From: Ruficoccus sp. ZRK36 | GTDB lineage: Bacteria; Verrucomicrobiota; Verrucomicrobiia; Opitutales; Cerasicoccaceae | DNA length: 64,000 nucleotides | Direction of reading: 5' to 3' | Assembly: GCF_019603315.1 (NCBI RefSeq) | Contig: NZ_CP080649.1 | Coordinates: 1,255,501-1,319,500 of the forward strand | In this document: piece by piece, positions 23,859-50,752 of the stretch | How positions within the stretch are numbered: position 1 is the first letter of the stretch | Layout: each line of letters opens with the position of its first letter | The notes under the pieces: generated by a model | What the model was told of the DNA's origin: nothing | The model's input: only the letters and a program-made list of their open reading frames with translations | The model's database searches: none | Translations under genes and position numbers: made by a program

Positions 23859-25016
23859 CTAGGGGAGGCGGCCGATGATGTCGTCGCGGTTAGCGTAGAA
23901 AATCGCGTTGTCGCGGGAGATGGCGCCATCTTCGTGCAGTTGAAGGAGGCGGCGCTCCATGGTGATCATACCGTACTCTCCGCCGGTCTCCATGGCGGAA
24001 TAAATCTGGTGCAGCTTGCGGGAGCGCAGGAAGTTGCCCATTTGCGGTGTATTGCGGAGCACTTCCATCGCCACGGTGCGGCCTTTGCCGTCAGCCCGCG
24101 GGATGAGCTTCTGGCTCAGCACGTAGGCGAGGCTGAAGCTCAGCTGGGTGGAGAGCTCGCGTTCGCGCTCAGCCGGAAACATATCGATCAGGCGGGTGAG
24201 TGCGCCGATCGCATCGCGCGTGTGCAGGGGGGCAAAAACCAGGTGCCCGGTTTCGGCAGCAGCCAGGGCGAGCGAAGCCGTTTCCAGGTCGCGAATTTCC
24301 CCCACGAAGATGATGTCCGGGTCTTCACGCAGTGCGCTGCGCAGCCCCTGAGCGAAGTTTGATACGTGGCGCCCGAGCTCTCGTTGAGAGATGAGAGAGC
24401 GCTTGCTCTTAAACAGATACTCCACCGGGTCTTCCAGCGTGATGATGCGTCGGGCGCTGCTCTGGTTGATGGTGTCCAGGAGGCTGGCGATGGTGGTAGA
24501 CTTACCACTGCCGGTGACGCCGGAGACGATGACCAGCCCCTGATGAATGCCGCAAATGTGCTTCCAGACCTGGTCATTGGGAAAGCCGCACTCCTGCAGA
24601 TCAGGGATCTTCGGCGGAAGCAGGCGGATGACGGCCGCGAGGCCATCGTTCTCGTGAAAGGCGTTTATGCGGAAGTTGTAGGCTTGGTCCTCGATGGTGA
24701 GAGGAAAGCTGCTGTCCACGTCAGCCATGGGGTCGTCTCTCATTTGCTTCCAGTCGACCTCGGAGAGCATGGGGTAGATGAGGGCTTCGGCCAGTTCGGG
24801 GCTCAGCAGTTCACCGCCGGGTACACTGTACAGCTCCTGGTCCATGCGGAAGCGGACAGGCTCCCCGACCTTGAAGTGAAAGTCGGAAATGCGCGGCATG
24901 CCGTTGCGCATGTAGTCCGGGTCAAAGGCGCTGCTCAGCAAATCCACGATGCTGTACTGCGAGTCTCCCGTGCTGTAGACTTTACGGTGCGGATCGTAGA
25001 TGGGTGAGGATGACAT
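23859..25016 (-). CDS. pilT: Type IV pilus retraction ATPase PilT-like
   Basis: Hexameric secretion-type ATPase that depolymerises type IV pili. It has 385 residues. Walker A is GVTGSGKSTTIASLLD, the Asp box is IITLEDPVEYLF, Walker B is LREDPDIIFVGEIRD, and the His box is GHLVFAPLHTRDA. The C-terminus has KLHQIYSAMETGG, like the PilT retraction motif region (HQIYS). A PilU-type paralogue cannot be excluded. No other pilus genes are adjacent, although pilin-like proteins are encoded elsewhere in the window (28 kb and 49-51 kb). Confidence 0.9.
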   Translation of the reverse strand: MSSSPIYDPHRKVYSTGDSQYSIVDLLSSAFDPDYMRNGMPRISDFHFKVGEPVRFRMDQELYSVPGGELLSPELAEALIYPMLSEVDWKQMRDDPMADVDSSFPLTIEDQAYNFRINAFHENDGLAAVIRLLPPKIPDLQECGFPNDQVWKHICGIHQGLVIVSGVTGSGKSTTIASLLDTINQSSARRIITLEDPVEYLFKSKRSLISQRELGRHVSNFAQGLRSALREDPDIIFVGEIRDLETASLALAAAETGHLVFAPLHTRDAIGALTRLIDMFPAERERELSTQLSFSLAYVLSQKLIPRADGKGRTVAMEVLRNTPQMGNFLRSRKLHQIYSAMETGGEYGMITMERRLLQLHEDGAISRDNAIFYANRDDIIGRLP

Positions 25017-26857: not shown

Positions 26858-28018
26858 TTACTCTGCTTCGCTCACACGCAGTTGGTAGAAGACGGCTTCG
26901 CCTGAGGCGGGTGCGGTCGTATCGCTCCACAGGTACTGTGTGCGTGCATTCTGCGTGTCGAGTGTCTGCACGCCTCCGCTCCAGTTATCGGTGCCGAATT
27001 TGGTTGCGACCGGGGCCCAGTCGGCGGCGATCAGGTCTGTGGTACGCCAGATTTGATAAGTGATGTCCGGCCGGGCCGGCTCGGGAATCTCAAGGATGAA
27101 TCCCGGTACTCCTACTGTGCTCGTAGCCTGAGGGAGTGCGGCTGATCCCGTTTGGTTTAGCCCGAGCGCATAGCGCACGCCGTTGGCAAGAGCGGAGGGA
27201 GTAGCTTGATCGGTAAAGCCTTCTGCCCCACTATCGGTGAGTCCGGCTGACCAGAGCCAGTTGTCGTAGTTTTCTACTACAACGGTGGTGATGCGAAACG
27301 TGACCGCGTACACCCCTGCCTGGGTGAAGCTCCAGTTCAGGTGTGAGTGGCCACCTGCCTCCAGGTAGTAGCAGTCGTTCTCGTCGATACCATCGGAGGT
27401 GGCCATGTAGACGATGGGCGAATTTGCGCCATAGTCGAAGACGGCGAACTCGCCCCCGGCCGGGCCGTTTACATTGACCAGGTCGAGCCGGAGGAACTTA
27501 GCCGAGGAGTCGGCGTAGTGGCTTGGGTCTTGTGGGTTCCAGGGGACGAGCTTGCTATCCGTATCCTCTTCGGACGAGAGGCCGAGGTAGATCGAGCCGG
27601 GGACGACATAGGACTCCATTAACCAGAATGTATCTCCATCCGCTGCTCCGATGAAGCCATAACCCATGTCGATCGAGGTCTGTCCCATCGTGCGGCGTGT
27701 ACCACTGTTCGCGTAGAGGTGGGCCTCGCCGGGAGTGTAGGTGGTTTCATCGCCAGCGGCATTGTCGCTGTTGTTGAGGTTGGCTGTGGCGAGGTAGGGA
27801 GAGCCGACTCCGCCAAAGTAGGAGATGCGCATGTCCACGTGCAGGCCGTCCAGACGCGTGGAGCCAGCACGATCTGTTTCCACACCGAAGTAAAACGTAT
27901 GCAGGGCACTGCTTACGCTGAGGCCCTCAGCCTTCAGAGAAGTGTGCGCGCTGAGAACGAGAACGGCCGCGGCGAGGGCACCAAATTTAACGATAGTACG
28001 TGAGCAGAGACTTTTCAT
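26858..28018 (-). CDS. Choice-of-anchor M domain surface protein
   Basis: A 386-residue exported protein. It has a signal peptide (about residues 1-31), then the anchor M type region with HTFYFGVETDRAG and the hallmark GGHSHLNWSFTQAGVYAVTF (residues around 225-245). The C-terminal part is a second beta domain ending FYQLRVSEAE, with no PEP-CTERM tail. The family (TIGR03769 and relatives) is often found near metal ABC transporters in Actinobacteria. It is the third gene of the operon; its ATG overlaps the prepilin-like gene by 4 bases. Confidence 0.85.
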   Translation of the reverse strand: MKSLCSRTIVKFGALAAAVLVLSAHTSLKAEGLSVSSALHTFYFGVETDRAGSTRLDGLHVDMRISYFGGVGSPYLATANLNNSDNAAGDETTYTPGEAHLYANSGTRRTMGQTSIDMGYGFIGAADGDTFWLMESYVVPGSIYLGLSSEEDTDSKLVPWNPQDPSHYADSSAKFLRLDLVNVNGPAGGEFAVFDYGANSPIVYMATSDGIDENDCYYLEAGGHSHLNWSFTQAGVYAVTFRITTVVVENYDNWLWSAGLTDSGAEGFTDQATPSALANGVRYALGLNQTGSAALPQATSTVGVPGFILEIPEPARPDITYQIWRTTDLIAADWAPVATKFGTDNWSGGVQTLDTQNARTQYLWSDTTAPASGEAVFYQLRVSEAE

Positions 28019-28716
28019 GTGCCGGGTGGTTTTGCGGGGTTGATGCCGCGGGCGAAGGTGGCCCTCAGCTCACTGGCGAGCATGAAGTCCACGTGTCCGT
28101 CGGCGTAGAGATAGTTGGCCCCGCCCCGGTGTCGGTCGGGCTGGATATCCATTTTCGCACTGGCGTAGCCGGTGGAGCCGATCCAGGTGCGCGAGTGGGT
28201 GTGGTCGTAGCTGATGTTGACCGAGAGATCATCGGCGCCGGTGAACACCGTGATCGTGTCGCCCGGCTGAGGCAGGCTCATGATGTTTGTGTAGTTTTCG
28301 TTTACGACAAACTGGCCGGTGGCGAAGTTAAAGCTCCTCGCGGTGACCGCGATGTATTCATTCATGACGTAGCTGGACAGACCCGCTTCCAGCCGGTCAT
28401 CCGCGCGTGGATCGCCAGGGCAGATGCGGACTTCGTCCACGTTCTGGATATACGGAGCCAAGGTGTAGACCCACGATTCGCTCGACTTCCCGTCGTGTGT
28501 GGTTTTGGGAAACTGCCCGGCGTTTGATTGGCAGAACAGCATCATCCCCGTGCCGATCTGACGCAAGTTGGAGGCGCACTTGGCCTGACGCGCAGTAGCC
28601 CGCGCGCCGGTGAGGGTGGCGTGCAGGATACAGGCGAGGATGGCCACGACGGCTATGACGGCCAGCAGCTCAATCAGGCTGAACCCTGGCCGTCTTTTCT
28701 GAAAGCCCAGATGCAT
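28015..28716 (-). CDS. Prepilin-like protein with H-X9-DG motif
   Basis: A 233-residue type II secretion/type IV pilin-like protein. The N-terminus RRPGFSLIELLAVIAVVAIL is a canonical class III signal: cleavage after G before F, Glu at position +5. Near the C-terminus the H-X9-DG motif reads HRGGANYLYADGH, as in the prepilin-associated H-X9-DG family common in Planctomycetes and Verrucomicrobia. The ATG at 28716 is chosen because the frame's earlier start at 28737 overlaps the preceding gene. Its stop overlaps the next gene by 4 bases. The specific substrate or partner is unknown. Confidence 0.87.
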   Translation of the reverse strand: MHLGFQKRRPGFSLIELLAVIAVVAILACILHATLTGARATARQAKCASNLRQIGTGMMLFCQSNAGQFPKTTHDGKSSESWVYTLAPYIQNVDEVRICPGDPRADDRLEAGLSSYVMNEYIAVTARSFNFATGQFVVNENYTNIMSLPQPGDTITVFTGADDLSVNISYDHTHSRTWIGSTGYASAKMDIQPDRHRGGANYLYADGHVDFMLASELRATFARGINPAKPPGT

Positions 28717-28720
28717 AAGC

Positions 28721-29467
28721 TCAGGCGCTCTGACCACGTGCCCGGCGGCGCAGCAGGATCAGGCCGAGAGCGGCGCTGCCACCCAGTAGTGCCCAGGTGG
28801 AGGGCTCGGGGACGACGTTAAAGGTGTAGGTGGCAGTTGAGAACTGCGGGTCACCCGAGATGGCCTCGGTCGCGGCTACGCTAAAAGTCAGCTCGTAGGT
28901 GCCCGCTTCAGAGAAGCCCCAGTTGACGTGCATGTGGTCGGCGTCGTCGAGGTCGAGTGTGATGAGATCAGACGAGCTGATGCCATCCGCTGTGGTCATC
29001 AGAAACGTCGGCACGCCGAGAGATTCTGTCCATACCGAGAAGGTCGCGCCATCCGGCATCACGGCAGATTCGAGCGTGAGTGAGAAAAGGTTGTCCGTGA
29101 AAAAACCGAGCTCGATCTCTTCACCGCCGATCCCGAGAAAGGGGGTCACCAGCGAGTCCGCCAGACTGTGGCTGGCTGGCAGATACCAGTAGCTTTCACC
29201 CGCGCTAACTCCTAGCCCGTCCCAGGCTGCTCCAGAGGCGCGGCCACCTTCACCCGTCGTGTAGGCATAGGTGCTGTACGGGACCTCAATGATCGCTGCG
29301 TCCGGCTCCATCTCGCCAACGCTCTCCAGGTGTAGGTGGAGCTCCAGCTCCTGACCTTCGCCCAGACCCATGTCTCCGTGGCCGGAGCTATAGGTATATA
29401 GATCTGCATGAGCGCTGTTGGCGACAGCCGCCACCCCGAGTCCGAAAAACAAGTGTGTGAACTTCAT
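28721..29467 (-). CDS. Choice-of-anchor M domain protein with PEP-CTERM signal
   Basis: A 248-residue exported protein with a short signal peptide and one anchor M domain carrying the hallmark HMHVNWGFSEAGTYELTF around residues 180-197. The C-terminus is a canonical PEP-CTERM: VVPEPSTWALL, a hydrophobic helix, then RRRARG. It is the first gene of the operon with the prepilin-like gene (4 bases downstream) and a second anchor M protein. Two operator-like palindromic sites lie in its promoter region. Confidence 0.88.
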   Translation of the reverse strand: MKFTHLFFGLGVAAVANSAHADLYTYSSGHGDMGLGEGQELELHLHLESVGEMEPDAAIIEVPYSTYAYTTGEGGRASGAAWDGLGVSAGESYWYLPASHSLADSLVTPFLGIGGEEIELGFFTDNLFSLTLESAVMPDGATFSVWTESLGVPTFLMTTADGISSSDLITLDLDDADHMHVNWGFSEAGTYELTFSVAATEAISGDPQFSTATYTFNVVPEPSTWALLGGSAALGLILLRRRARGQSA

Positions 29468-29470
29468 AGC

Positions 29471-29499
29471 CCACTAATGCAATATGTTTGCGTTAGTGG
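29471..29499. promoter_or_regulatory. Operator-like palindrome at the anchor M operon
   Basis: A 12-base arm (29471-29482) and its inverted partner (29488-29499), matching at 11 of 12 positions around a 5-base centre. The core is TGCAA-N5-TTGCGTTA. It lies directly before the start codon at 29467 and overlaps the ribosome-site region. A second TGCAA-N5-TTGCGTTA follows at 29513-29530. A metal-responsive repressor of the Fur/Zur type is a possible binder; this is inference. Confidence 0.5.
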
Positions 29500-29512
29500 T
29501 CAAGGGATTAAT

Positions 29513-29530
29513 TGCAACAAGATTGCGTTA
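29513..29530. promoter_or_regulatory. Second operator-like site of the anchor M operon
   Basis: TGCAA (29513-29517), a 5-base centre, and TTGCGTTA (29523-29530), the same half-sites and spacing as at 29471-29499. The centres are 35 bp apart. The outer flank of the left half is less symmetric. Confidence 0.4.
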
Positions 29531-48838: not shown

Positions 48839-50752
48839 ATGAAAGTTGCCCTCTCTTCACTGTTCTGTCTTTTCACCCTCATCATGCTGTCGGCCTGTGC
48901 TCCCAAGGAGCCTGCGCAGGAAGACACCGCATCCGCCGACTCTTTCCCGCTCGTTCCCGAGGAAAATCGGGCCCCGAGCTTCGAGGCTGTAGCCCGTGAT
49001 CTCGATCTGGGAGGTGACTCGTTTACATTTCGTGACCTTGGGGACACGTTTAAGAAGCTGGGAACCACGATCAACAAGATGGCAGCCAGCTTAGGGGCTC
49101 AGGACCCGAATAACATGCAGGTGGCGATGGCCTCCATGCTGCCGTACGAGCAGATCATAGAGGTGCTGGGGATTTCCGATTTATCGGCCATCGGGTCGAG
49201 CTCCTATCGGGATGGCTCGATGTTCCGCAACAAGAGCGTGATCTATCTGCCGAACGGTCCGCAGGGGATCTTCGCGCTCATGGGGAAGCAGCCGCACAGC
49301 TTTGACACAATTGCGATGGCCCCGGCCGGGACGGATGTTTTTATCACGCAGGATGTGCAGGGCAGCGTGATCGCCGAGGTCATCCGCTCCGGGACAAAGG
49401 CTATCTCCCCCGCTAACGGTGAGCAGATGGCCGCAGGAATTCTAGGGCGTCCGCTGGAGCCAGGAGTATCCCTCACTGTTGGCGAGGCCCTCGAAAAGGC
49501 CGACACGGTGCTGACCGCCGTGCTGCGCTTCGGCGAGATGAAGGACAGCTCCGTGCCGATGTTTGAGCAGACTATACCCCTTCCTCAGACGCAGTATCTG
49601 CTCCACCTGAAGGGGATGGGCTGGCTGGTGACCGAGGGGGTTATCCCTGTCGAGATGGATGTCAGTGAGGGCCGCATCACCCGTACGGAAAAAGACGGGC
49701 TCGTCATCTACGAGGAAAAGAACCAGTCCGATGATGGATTTCCGGTGAGCGCTCCCACTCTGGTGCTTGATTCGGCCACGGGCGACCTGATGGTTACGAA
49801 TGACACAAGCTTTCTGGAGGAATGCCGCTCGGGTGAGGGTAAGCTCGCTGCCAGCCCGGCCTATCAGGCTGCGGTCAAGGACCTGCCCGCGCAGGGTAAC
49901 GGTATGACCTACATTTCCCAAAAAGGCTTCGAGACTTTTATCGAGATGCGCGACAGTATCTTTTCCCAGTTCCCACAGGTCGGGGGTGCCTTTGCGATCT
50001 ACGAGATGTACATCCCGCTGCTGGGGCTTGAGAAGGTTGATGCGGATGCGGCCTGCGTCACCGTGGTGCGCTCCGATTCGATTTTCAATGACAGTCGCTG
50101 GCCCACCAACAGCTCTGGCCTGAGCAGCAACACCTCGGGGCTTGCCATTACGGGCATAATGGCCGCGATGGCCATCCCGGCTTTTAATAAAGTCCGGGCA
50201 GAGAGCCGCCAGAAAGCAATTACGAACAACCTGCGCCAGATTGCCTCTGGCGGGCAGCGGTACATCCTGGAGTCGGGTGAGTCCGAGGTCGGCTACGACA
50301 AGTTGGTCGGAGAATACTTTCCCCCGATTCAACCGGTGGCGGGTGAAAGCTACAATGACCTGGTCGTTACGGCGGACGGGAACACTCTGCAAGTCATCAC
50401 TGAAACAGGCCAAGTCGTGGAGTATAGTTATATGAGCCCCGAGGTGCGCTCTTCCCAGGCGGCTCCTCTCCCCCAGTCGACACCCGAAGCATCCAGCTCG
50501 GTCACGCATATCCGCGAGATGAGCCGTGGAAAAACCATCATGAACAACCTGCGCCAGATTGCCTCTGGCGGGCAGCAGTACATCCTGGAGTCGGGTGAGT
50601 CCGAGGTCGGCTACGACAAGTTGGCAGGCCGATACTTTGCCCCGATTATGCCCGTGGCGGGTGAAAGCTATGAAGACCTCGTCGTGAGCGAAAATGGAGG
50701 TACGCTCGAAGTCACGACATCATCCGGTCAGACCGTTAGCTACGAATACTAA
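48839..50752 (+). CDS. Large lipoprotein with embedded, duplicated pilin-like module
   Basis: A 637-residue lipoprotein: lipobox LSAC (Cys20) and a long N-terminal domain (about 30-430) with no motif I recognise. A pilin-like helix, ITGIMAAMAIPAFNKVRAES, starts near residue 437, running into NNLRQIASGGQRYILESGES (residues 462-481). The C-terminal half repeats: the same NNLRQIASGGQ unit starts again at residue 568, 106 residues on. The helix lacks the G-F cleavage site and Glu5, so this is a pilin-like domain inside a lipoprotein, not a prepilin. The two units are nearly identical in DNA, indicating recent duplication. The function is unknown. Confidence 0.75.
   Translation: MKVALSSLFCLFTLIMLSACAPKEPAQEDTASADSFPLVPEENRAPSFEAVARDLDLGGDSFTFRDLGDTFKKLGTTINKMAASLGAQDPNNMQVAMASMLPYEQIIEVLGISDLSAIGSSSYRDGSMFRNKSVIYLPNGPQGIFALMGKQPHSFDTIAMAPAGTDVFITQDVQGSVIAEVIRSGTKAISPANGEQMAAGILGRPLEPGVSLTVGEALEKADTVLTAVLRFGEMKDSSVPMFEQTIPLPQTQYLLHLKGMGWLVTEGVIPVEMDVSEGRITRTEKDGLVIYEEKNQSDDGFPVSAPTLVLDSATGDLMVTNDTSFLEECRSGEGKLAASPAYQAAVKDLPAQGNGMTYISQKGFETFIEMRDSIFSQFPQVGGAFAIYEMYIPLLGLEKVDADAACVTVVRSDSIFNDSRWPTNSSGLSSNTSGLAITGIMAAMAIPAFNKVRAESRQKAITNNLRQIASGGQRYILESGESEVGYDKLVGEYFPPIQPVAGESYNDLVVTADGNTLQVITETGQVVEYSYMSPEVRSSQAAPLPQSTPEASSSVTHIREMSRGKTIMNNLRQIASGGQQYILESGESEVGYDKLAGRYFAPIMPVAGESYEDLVVSENGGTLEVTTSSGQTVSYEY

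Follow-up and report, generated by a model that had tools for sequence, protein, structure and literature searches.

What could a member of the Verrucomicrobiota gain from a prepilin gene enclosed between two genes for choice-of-anchor-M proteins? The question is raised by a three-gene operon in Ruficoccus sp. ZRK36, in a stretch of 64,000 nucleotides (contig NZ_CP080649.1, positions 1,255,501 to 1,319,500; here called the window, and numbered from its first letter). The original prediction, made without database searches, had proposed metal-responsive capture at the cell surface, and our analysis supports this in part and narrows it. Judging from an operator upstream, from the zinc-related genes that accompany relatives of the trio and from a paired HxD/HxH motif, the metal sensed and captured is most likely zinc. 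We give a probability of about 0.72 to the reading that the trio is a zinc-starvation operon under a Zur-like repressor, which places zinc-binding proteins and a specialised prepilin outside the cell.

The genes lie in one order on the minus strand (Table 1), genes 1 and 2 being separated by 4 bases (28717-28720) and genes 2 and 3 sharing 4 (28015-28018), just as the original prediction had them. Genes 1 and 3 both belong to the choice-of-anchor-M family (NF038134: 86.4 and 70.0 bits, cut-off 55), and the only two places in the 3.76-Mb genome that match the TIGR03769 domain model are within the trio. The features previously described for the three products were recovered by family models: a PEP-CTERM end in gene 1 (TIGR02595, 25.2 bits against a cut-off of 16; PF07589, 21.8 against 20.7), no sorting signal in gene 3 among the models searched at E 0.01, and in gene 2 a class III pilin signal (TIGR02532, 29.0 against 16.3) with an exact H-X9-DG (TIGR04294, 28.4 against 19); gene 2 also matches PF07596 (39.0 against 23.3). 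A sigma-70 consensus scan for a trio promoter gave no match on the minus strand.

What had been missed is a pair of dyads upstream of gene 1. The nearer, putative operator A, sits 3 bases from the start codon, and with operator B it forms an 18-nucleotide direct repeat (83% identical, spacing 35); the dyad consensus is TAATGCAA-N5-TTGCATTA. Searched for as TAAYGCAA-N5-TTGCRTTA, operator A is the sole place in the window genome without a mismatch. When nine other genomes of the family were scanned with a slightly wider pattern, at up to one mismatch, 24 places were found, against 4 for reversed-pattern controls. Choice-of-anchor-M/prepilin operons account for 15 of the 24 and other genes for seven; two are unassigned (in G006 and G008; G, C, L and f are our handles for genomes, contigs, loci and families). 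The other genes are a GTPase that scores 605.7 on ZigA (cut-off 600) and a LysM-amidase, both in a G003 cluster; a LysM-amidase of G004, 76% identical to that of G003; a ZIP transporter in G005; members, in G005 and G007, of a family of 159-172-residue proteins to which the gene that follows the G003 amidase is related; and a G007 pair that corresponds, by sequence likeness, to one in the window genome encoding a protein with a PEP-CTERM-like tail and an alkaline phosphatase. A weaker copy of the dyad, with two or three mismatches, lies before znuA in seven of eight znuACB loci of one type, that of the window genome included; none was seen before znuA at the G008 locus. A conserved dyad common to zinc uptake genes, the mark of a Zur regulon, is strong in the family (ZIP, ZigA) and weaker at znuA. 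A weight matrix gave scores of at least 22 in 14 of the 16 family operons (a circular figure, as the matrix was built from the family's own sites), and 11 of these 14 outscored every control window of their locus; one of the two failures is a matter of the start-codon call, the site being present, and the other is a weak paralogue. Because the operator adjoins the start codon and keeps the company of zinc genes, we infer that the operon is subject to zinc-dependent repression.

Two kinds of gene recur behind such sites. The 159-172-residue proteins, which have no Pfam match, are found repeatedly (L042:4673-5152, L340:1525-2043, L336:940-1434) and are a possible new member of the regulon. The protein with a PEP-CTERM-like tail, followed by alkaline phosphatase (a zinc enzyme), is preceded by an operator-like site in two members of the genus (L004:684-1409, L341:1638-2384). 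In families f11 and f22 the upstream dyad seems to be drifting to TAATGAAA-N5-TTTCATTA (L069, L085, L086, L089, L091), perhaps along with a change of regulator.

The neighbours of the domain genes in other genomes point in the same direction. Among five TonB receptors tested beside such genes, ZnuD was the best NCBIfam match, below its cut-off, for four (L043, L073, L085, L086), and three more receptors near domain genes were found by likeness (L315, L322, L326). COG0523 GTPases, MerC proteins, a spermidine-synthase-like protein and Fur-family genes also occur as neighbours. Beside the trio itself no zinc ATP-binding cassette (ABC) transporter was present among the neighbouring genes read, as had been remarked at the outset; znuACB-like genes, with the weaker operator, lie about 0.88 Mb away.

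The choice-of-anchor-M proteins carry the histidine-rich HxH-x-NW motifs noticed earlier (HMHVNW in gene 1, HSHLNW in gene 3), each preceded by an HxD at a distance (Table 1) close to the approximately 150 residues of the ZnuE/F/G type discussed below. Among 73 open reading frames (ORFs) of this kind, some of them incomplete, a looser pattern, HxHx[NHDAW], was found in 63, and together with an HxD 110-220 residues upstream in 44. The 42 chosen from these for the motif alignment all match NF038134, while TIGR03773 matches 35 and TIGR03772 27; the window proteins score 44.4 and 41.0 bits as whole proteins on TIGR03773 (cut-off 190.3), and so are relatives of that family, not members. The domain is sporadic, being present in all ten genomes of the family, in 32 of 177 of the order and in 28 of 387 drawn from the phylum. 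An AlphaFold model of gene 1 from six sequences had a mean predicted local distance difference test score (pLDDT) of 69.1. For this model and that of the prepilin Foldseek counted no Protein Data Bank match with E up to 0.001; the best one for gene 1 was an E. coli pilin subunit with a printed E of 1.0e-03. From the HxD/HxH pair and its published relatives, it is likely that genes 1 and 3 serve extracellular zinc capture.

The prepilin is distinctive too. For comparison with 96 other prepilins we assembled 37 linked ones (36 distinct, as the proteins of L188 and L316 are identical): 24 of the 27 in operons (L071, L092 and L094 left out), 11 further ones at over 200 bits, and those of L187 and L188. 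DHxH is present in 35 of the 37 against 1 of the 96, and His74 in 34 against 6, a contrast that is partly by construction, since the 24 were picked for their resemblance to gene 2, from loci fetched by their choice-of-anchor-M domain; the 11 further prepilins and that of L187 are outside the rows of the subfamily model. The exact H-X9-DG that gave gene 2 its earlier description is really there; it is no conserved feature of the subfamily (2 of 37, against 45 of 96), and it was rejected as the main clue to gene 2.

In the window and 45 loci fetched around the domain, all 27 ORFs that match the subfamily model at E <1e-8 are on the same strand as a choice-of-anchor-M ORF and within 100 nucleotides of it. 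In the ten family genomes the operon prepilins take the ten highest places (260-338 bits) and the eleventh match scores 140 bits, a gap partly due to a model built from rows of these genomes; each genome has one or two at 260 bits or more, save G006, with none. A further 15 domain-fetched loci came from 16 new genomes (G402 belongs to the same order; G358, at E 2e-4, was not used), and 11 of them hold a DHxH prepilin of 257-297 bits within 2.5 kb of the domain: six abutting on the same strand, two adjacent and divergent, and three about 2.4-2.5 kb away. Conservation of the trio and a metal link of the domain in relatives had been proposed as tests, and both outcomes favour the original prediction. 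What is conserved is chiefly the pair: domain and prepilin are adjacent in 22 of the 32 domain-bearing genomes found among the 177 of the order (nine of ten in the family, 13 of 22 outside it), and only some of the genomes with the pair repeat the full three-gene order (L323 has the window's arrangement of domain, prepilin and domain). Metal-linked genes and operators accompany choice-of-anchor-M genes in relatives, though not in every genome.

Some neighbouring arrangements may be recorded here. None of the six domain-bearing genomes of family f21 has an adjacent prepilin. A contig scan for prepilins gave, among the 80 loci listed, mostly other prepilins; L187 and L188 hold a subfamily prepilin with the domain, and L264 has the domain beside another prepilin. 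At L278:1471-3630 (G003:C28) a second DHxH prepilin (DHFH) stands ahead of a PEP-CTERM-like protein, which weakly matches both choice_anch_M and the Zur-repressed all3515 family, and of a beta-propeller protein after that; no operator was found at this locus within four mismatches. In the window itself, a 637-residue ORF at 48839-50752 (+) has a weak prepilin-model match (E 1e-5), excluded from the 27 above, and no Pfam match at E 1e-4. A T2SSE-type ATPase (type II secretion/type IV pilus family) is encoded at 23859-25016 (-), at a distance of 1.8 kb from the trio, and this genome therefore probably has pilus- or type II-like machinery, which may or may not serve gene 2.

How far can the proposed zinc-starvation operon be trusted? 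There are points to be set against it at the level of the operator, of the prepilin and of the regulator. At up to three mismatches the window genome has 18 operator-like places against 11 for the control; many must be due to chance, and for that reason the operator argument rests on conservation. The 18 include C1:408922, which has a Fur-family gene on one side and on the other a znuA-like gene followed by genes for an ABC ATPase and permease; C1:426925, before a histidine-rich COG0523 GTPase; and C1:2554067, before the gene for the PEP-CTERM-like tail (no model over its cut-off) and alkaline phosphatase. The znuA and GTPase sites, with two or three mismatches, fall in the range where chance is high. 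In other families of the order a weight-matrix score of at least 20 was reached in 11 of 47 operons, leaving 36 without such a site, and a site with at most one mismatch precedes the pair in only three of the 15 further loci (L317, L319, L321), twelve being without; L317 has another such site before a COG0523 GTPase. One of the five TonB receptors (L097) is not ZnuD-like. As to the prepilin, two DHxH proteins that belong to neither comparison set (L189, 239 bits; L190, 189 bits) have no domain nearby, G006 of the family and nine of the 22 other genomes of the order have no adjacent prepilin, and the AlphaFold model (mean pLDDT 78.7) falls below 50 at residues 174-195, just past DHTH, with an empty Foldseek result at E 0.001.

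The strongest rival concerns gene 2 alone. It may be an export or assembly helper for the choice-of-anchor-M proteins, a type II secretion pseudopilin without contact with zinc, and we regard this as a serious candidate, a little short of an even chance. Gene 2 is a typical class III prepilin, and the family genomes contain 27-70 prepilin matches each. Against this, His74 and DHxH are of residue types apt for zinc and are largely peculiar to the linked proteins, and the domain occurs in ten of 32 genomes without an adjacent prepilin, which argues that the prepilin is not a general need of export. The conserved histidines favour some contact of the prepilin with zinc. That gene 2 is a zinc-binding minor pilin of a Zur-controlled pilus or pseudopilus, which carries or threads the HxD/HxH proteins and from which zinc is handed to a ZnuD-like receptor, is a bolder and rather doubtful proposal. 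If true, it would represent a pilus-based uptake route for a metal ion, in scattered lineages of the phylum.

The next rival would have the operon regulated by iron or manganese, through Fur or Mur, and not by zinc through Zur. The window genome has six Fur-family genes. In a tree of 68 Fur-family proteins (midpoint-rooted, with several long branches), nine distinct proteins encoded beside the domain formed one group with ten others (support 100/99), and the window genome's member of this group is the gene at C1:3644127; the Fur proteins linked to znuACB form a separate group, and the 15 further loci yielded no Fur-family gene. Among solved structures the closest relatives of the C1:3644127 product are nearly level, at 70.4 bits for M. 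tuberculosis FurB/Zur (the FurB entry is named a probable zinc uptake regulator), 70.3 for 3mwm, which we take to be S. coelicolor Zur, and 70.2 for the ferric uptake protein 8j6w, so they do not decide. On NCBIfam the Fur model (75.5 bits) outscores that of E. coli Zur (39.1), neither being over its cut-off, and the ZnuA-like protein of this genome fits the manganese model (216.1) slightly better than the zinc one (204.5), again below both cut-offs. On the other side, the operator is common to a ZIP transporter and a ZigA-type GTPase in relatives, the nearby receptors are mostly ZnuD-like, and relatives of the domain described in the literature are under zinc control (PMC12445094; PMC6711530). 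Control by iron or manganese seems improbable, and the regulator of the proposed zinc-starvation operon is probably Zur-like, in a comparison of sequences that does not itself separate Zur from Fur. The Fur-family gene next to znuACB might seem the obvious regulator of the trio; it was not adopted because the nine domain-adjacent proteins group elsewhere. Such a gene, followed by znuACB-like genes, is kept in several family genomes (L047:8478-11512), and the L047 protein has a C-terminus that is degenerate by eye and a group of its own in the tree.

That the association is only a by-product of abundant PEP-CTERM and prepilin genes, the dyads serving some common regulator unrelated to metals, is very improbable: prepilin genes are indeed numerous and two of the 24 near-exact sites lack a recognised zinc-related neighbour, but the specificity of the sites, the recurrence of the pair and the company of zinc genes speak against it, and chance adjacency was rejected on the bit-score gap and on that same recurrence across genomes.

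How might such a zinc-starvation operon work? A zinc-loaded Zur-like repressor on both dyads would hold the operon off, and zinc shortage would turn it on. Genes 1 and 3 would then supply secreted proteins that use their HxD and HxH motifs to bind zinc beyond the inner membrane, that of gene 1 being processed by way of its PEP-CTERM signal and that of gene 3 probably released or held by partners. The gene 2 prepilin would enter the inner membrane, be cut by prepilin peptidase and become part of type II secretion or type IV pilus machinery, where most likely it would help to position or retain the zinc-binding proteins; it may itself bind zinc through His74 and DHxH. Captured zinc would pass to a ZnuD-like or other outer-membrane receptor and thence to ZnuACB. 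Such a scheme would assign zinc acquisition as a function to one subfamily among the many uncharacterised prepilins of these bacteria, in a form open to testing through two dyads, a group of regulators and one motif (H74/DHxH), would join the HxD/HxH zinc proteins of actinobacteria to PEP-CTERM proteins of a Gram-negative phylum, and yields a putative Zur box with many instances in the phylum.

Table 1. Positions in the window of the trio, its motifs and signals, and the putative operators
Feature	Position	Strand	Detail
Gene 1: secreted choice-of-anchor-M protein, PEP-CTERM sorted	28721..29467	-	248 residues; NF038134, TIGR02595
Gene 2: prepilin of DHxH subfamily	28015..28716	-	233 residues from ATG at 28716; class III signal, H74, D171-H172-T-H174
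Gene 3: choice-of-anchor-M protein, no C-terminal sorting signal found	26858..28018	-	386 residues; NF038134
Putative operator A: 12-bp inverted repeat, 5-bp spacer, core 29475-29495	29471..29499	.	Arms 92% complementary
Putative operator B: second dyad copy, 35 bp further upstream	29510..29530 (core)	.	2 mismatches to pattern
Gene 1 HxD (H30-G-D32)	29372..29380	-	At least 90% of the 42 aligned proteins have D32
Gene 1 HxH (H178-M-H180), 145 residues past HxD	28928..28936	-	Both His invariant across the 42-protein alignment
Gene 1 PEP-CTERM sorting signal, residues 219-243	28739..28813	-	TIGR02595, PF07589
Gene 2 prepilin-type cleavage/methylation signal, residues 11-30, GFSLIE	28627..28686	-	Class III
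Gene 2 DHTH motif, residues 171-174, signature of linked subfamily	28195..28206	-	DHxH in 35/37 linked versus 1/96 other prepilins
Gene 2 exact H-X9-DG, residues 196-207	28096..28131	-	Not conserved in subfamily
Gene 3 HxD (H60-V-D62)	27833..27841	-	Motif scan
Gene 3 HxH (H224-S-H226), 161 residues past HxD	27341..27349	-	Motif scan

A metal-linked surface assembly of this kind had at first seemed undescribed, and this holds only in part, as zinc proteins comparable to those of the two outer genes have been published in two other groups of bacteria. ZnuE, ZnuF and ZnuG of C. diphtheriae are zinc-regulated proteins with an HxD/HxH pair about 150 residues apart, whose conserved histidines were needed in growth assays, zinc-induced thermal shifts persisting in the mutants (PMC12445094); the Zur regulon of that organism includes the znuE/F/G genes and cmrA, according to a second report (PMC6711530). 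With these proteins and with CmrA/CmrA2 the trio would have in common the motif pair, a place at the surface and, on the strength of the putative operator, control by zinc and Zur, and ZnuF, which has no known sorting signal, resembles gene 3 in particular (PMC12445094; PMC6711530). The window proteins also match, at scores under the cut-offs, TIGR03773 and TIGR03772, two models that take their names from actinobacterial transporter-associated proteins. The differences are that C. diphtheriae is Gram-positive, that several of its proteins are sortase anchored, that ZnuE lies within an ABC transporter operon, and that, unlike the trio, its znu cluster has no pilin-like gene in the sections consulted (PMC12445094).

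The other parallel is ZepA (All3515) of Anabaena, a Zur-repressed PEP-CTERM exoprotein that acts in zinc uptake and that has homologues in the PVC superphylum too, with COG0523, TonB receptor and Fur-family genes and other PEP-CTERM proteins as neighbours (PMC10957091). The resemblance to the trio is in the PEP-CTERM exoprotein and in the types of neighbouring gene; the zinc motif of ZepA, H-X2-9-H-F/Y-H, is different, and in the main text of the paper neither 'pilin' nor 'prepilin' occurs (PMC10957091). Membership of the ZepA family was rejected, as NF040463 matched neither the window proteins at E 0.01 nor the 42 aligned proteins at E 0.001. With the H-X9-DG/DUF1559 prepilins (TIGR04294, PF07596) gene 2 shares the class III signal and scores over the cut-offs, and its subfamily differs from them in having H74 and DHxH, in nearly always lacking an exact H-X9-DG and in being tied to zinc genes. 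In the titles and abstract starts surveyed, no pilin-like protein is linked to a Zur operon, and no Zur regulon study concerns the Verrucomicrobia, the group to which Luteolibacter belongs. The trio probably works like ZnuE/F/G and ZepA and yet, because it misses the TIGR03773 cut-off, has no adjoining transporter and does not match NF040463, falls outside both systems as they are defined: Zur-controlled zinc exoproteins are already known, and it is the prepilin partner that is the new element.

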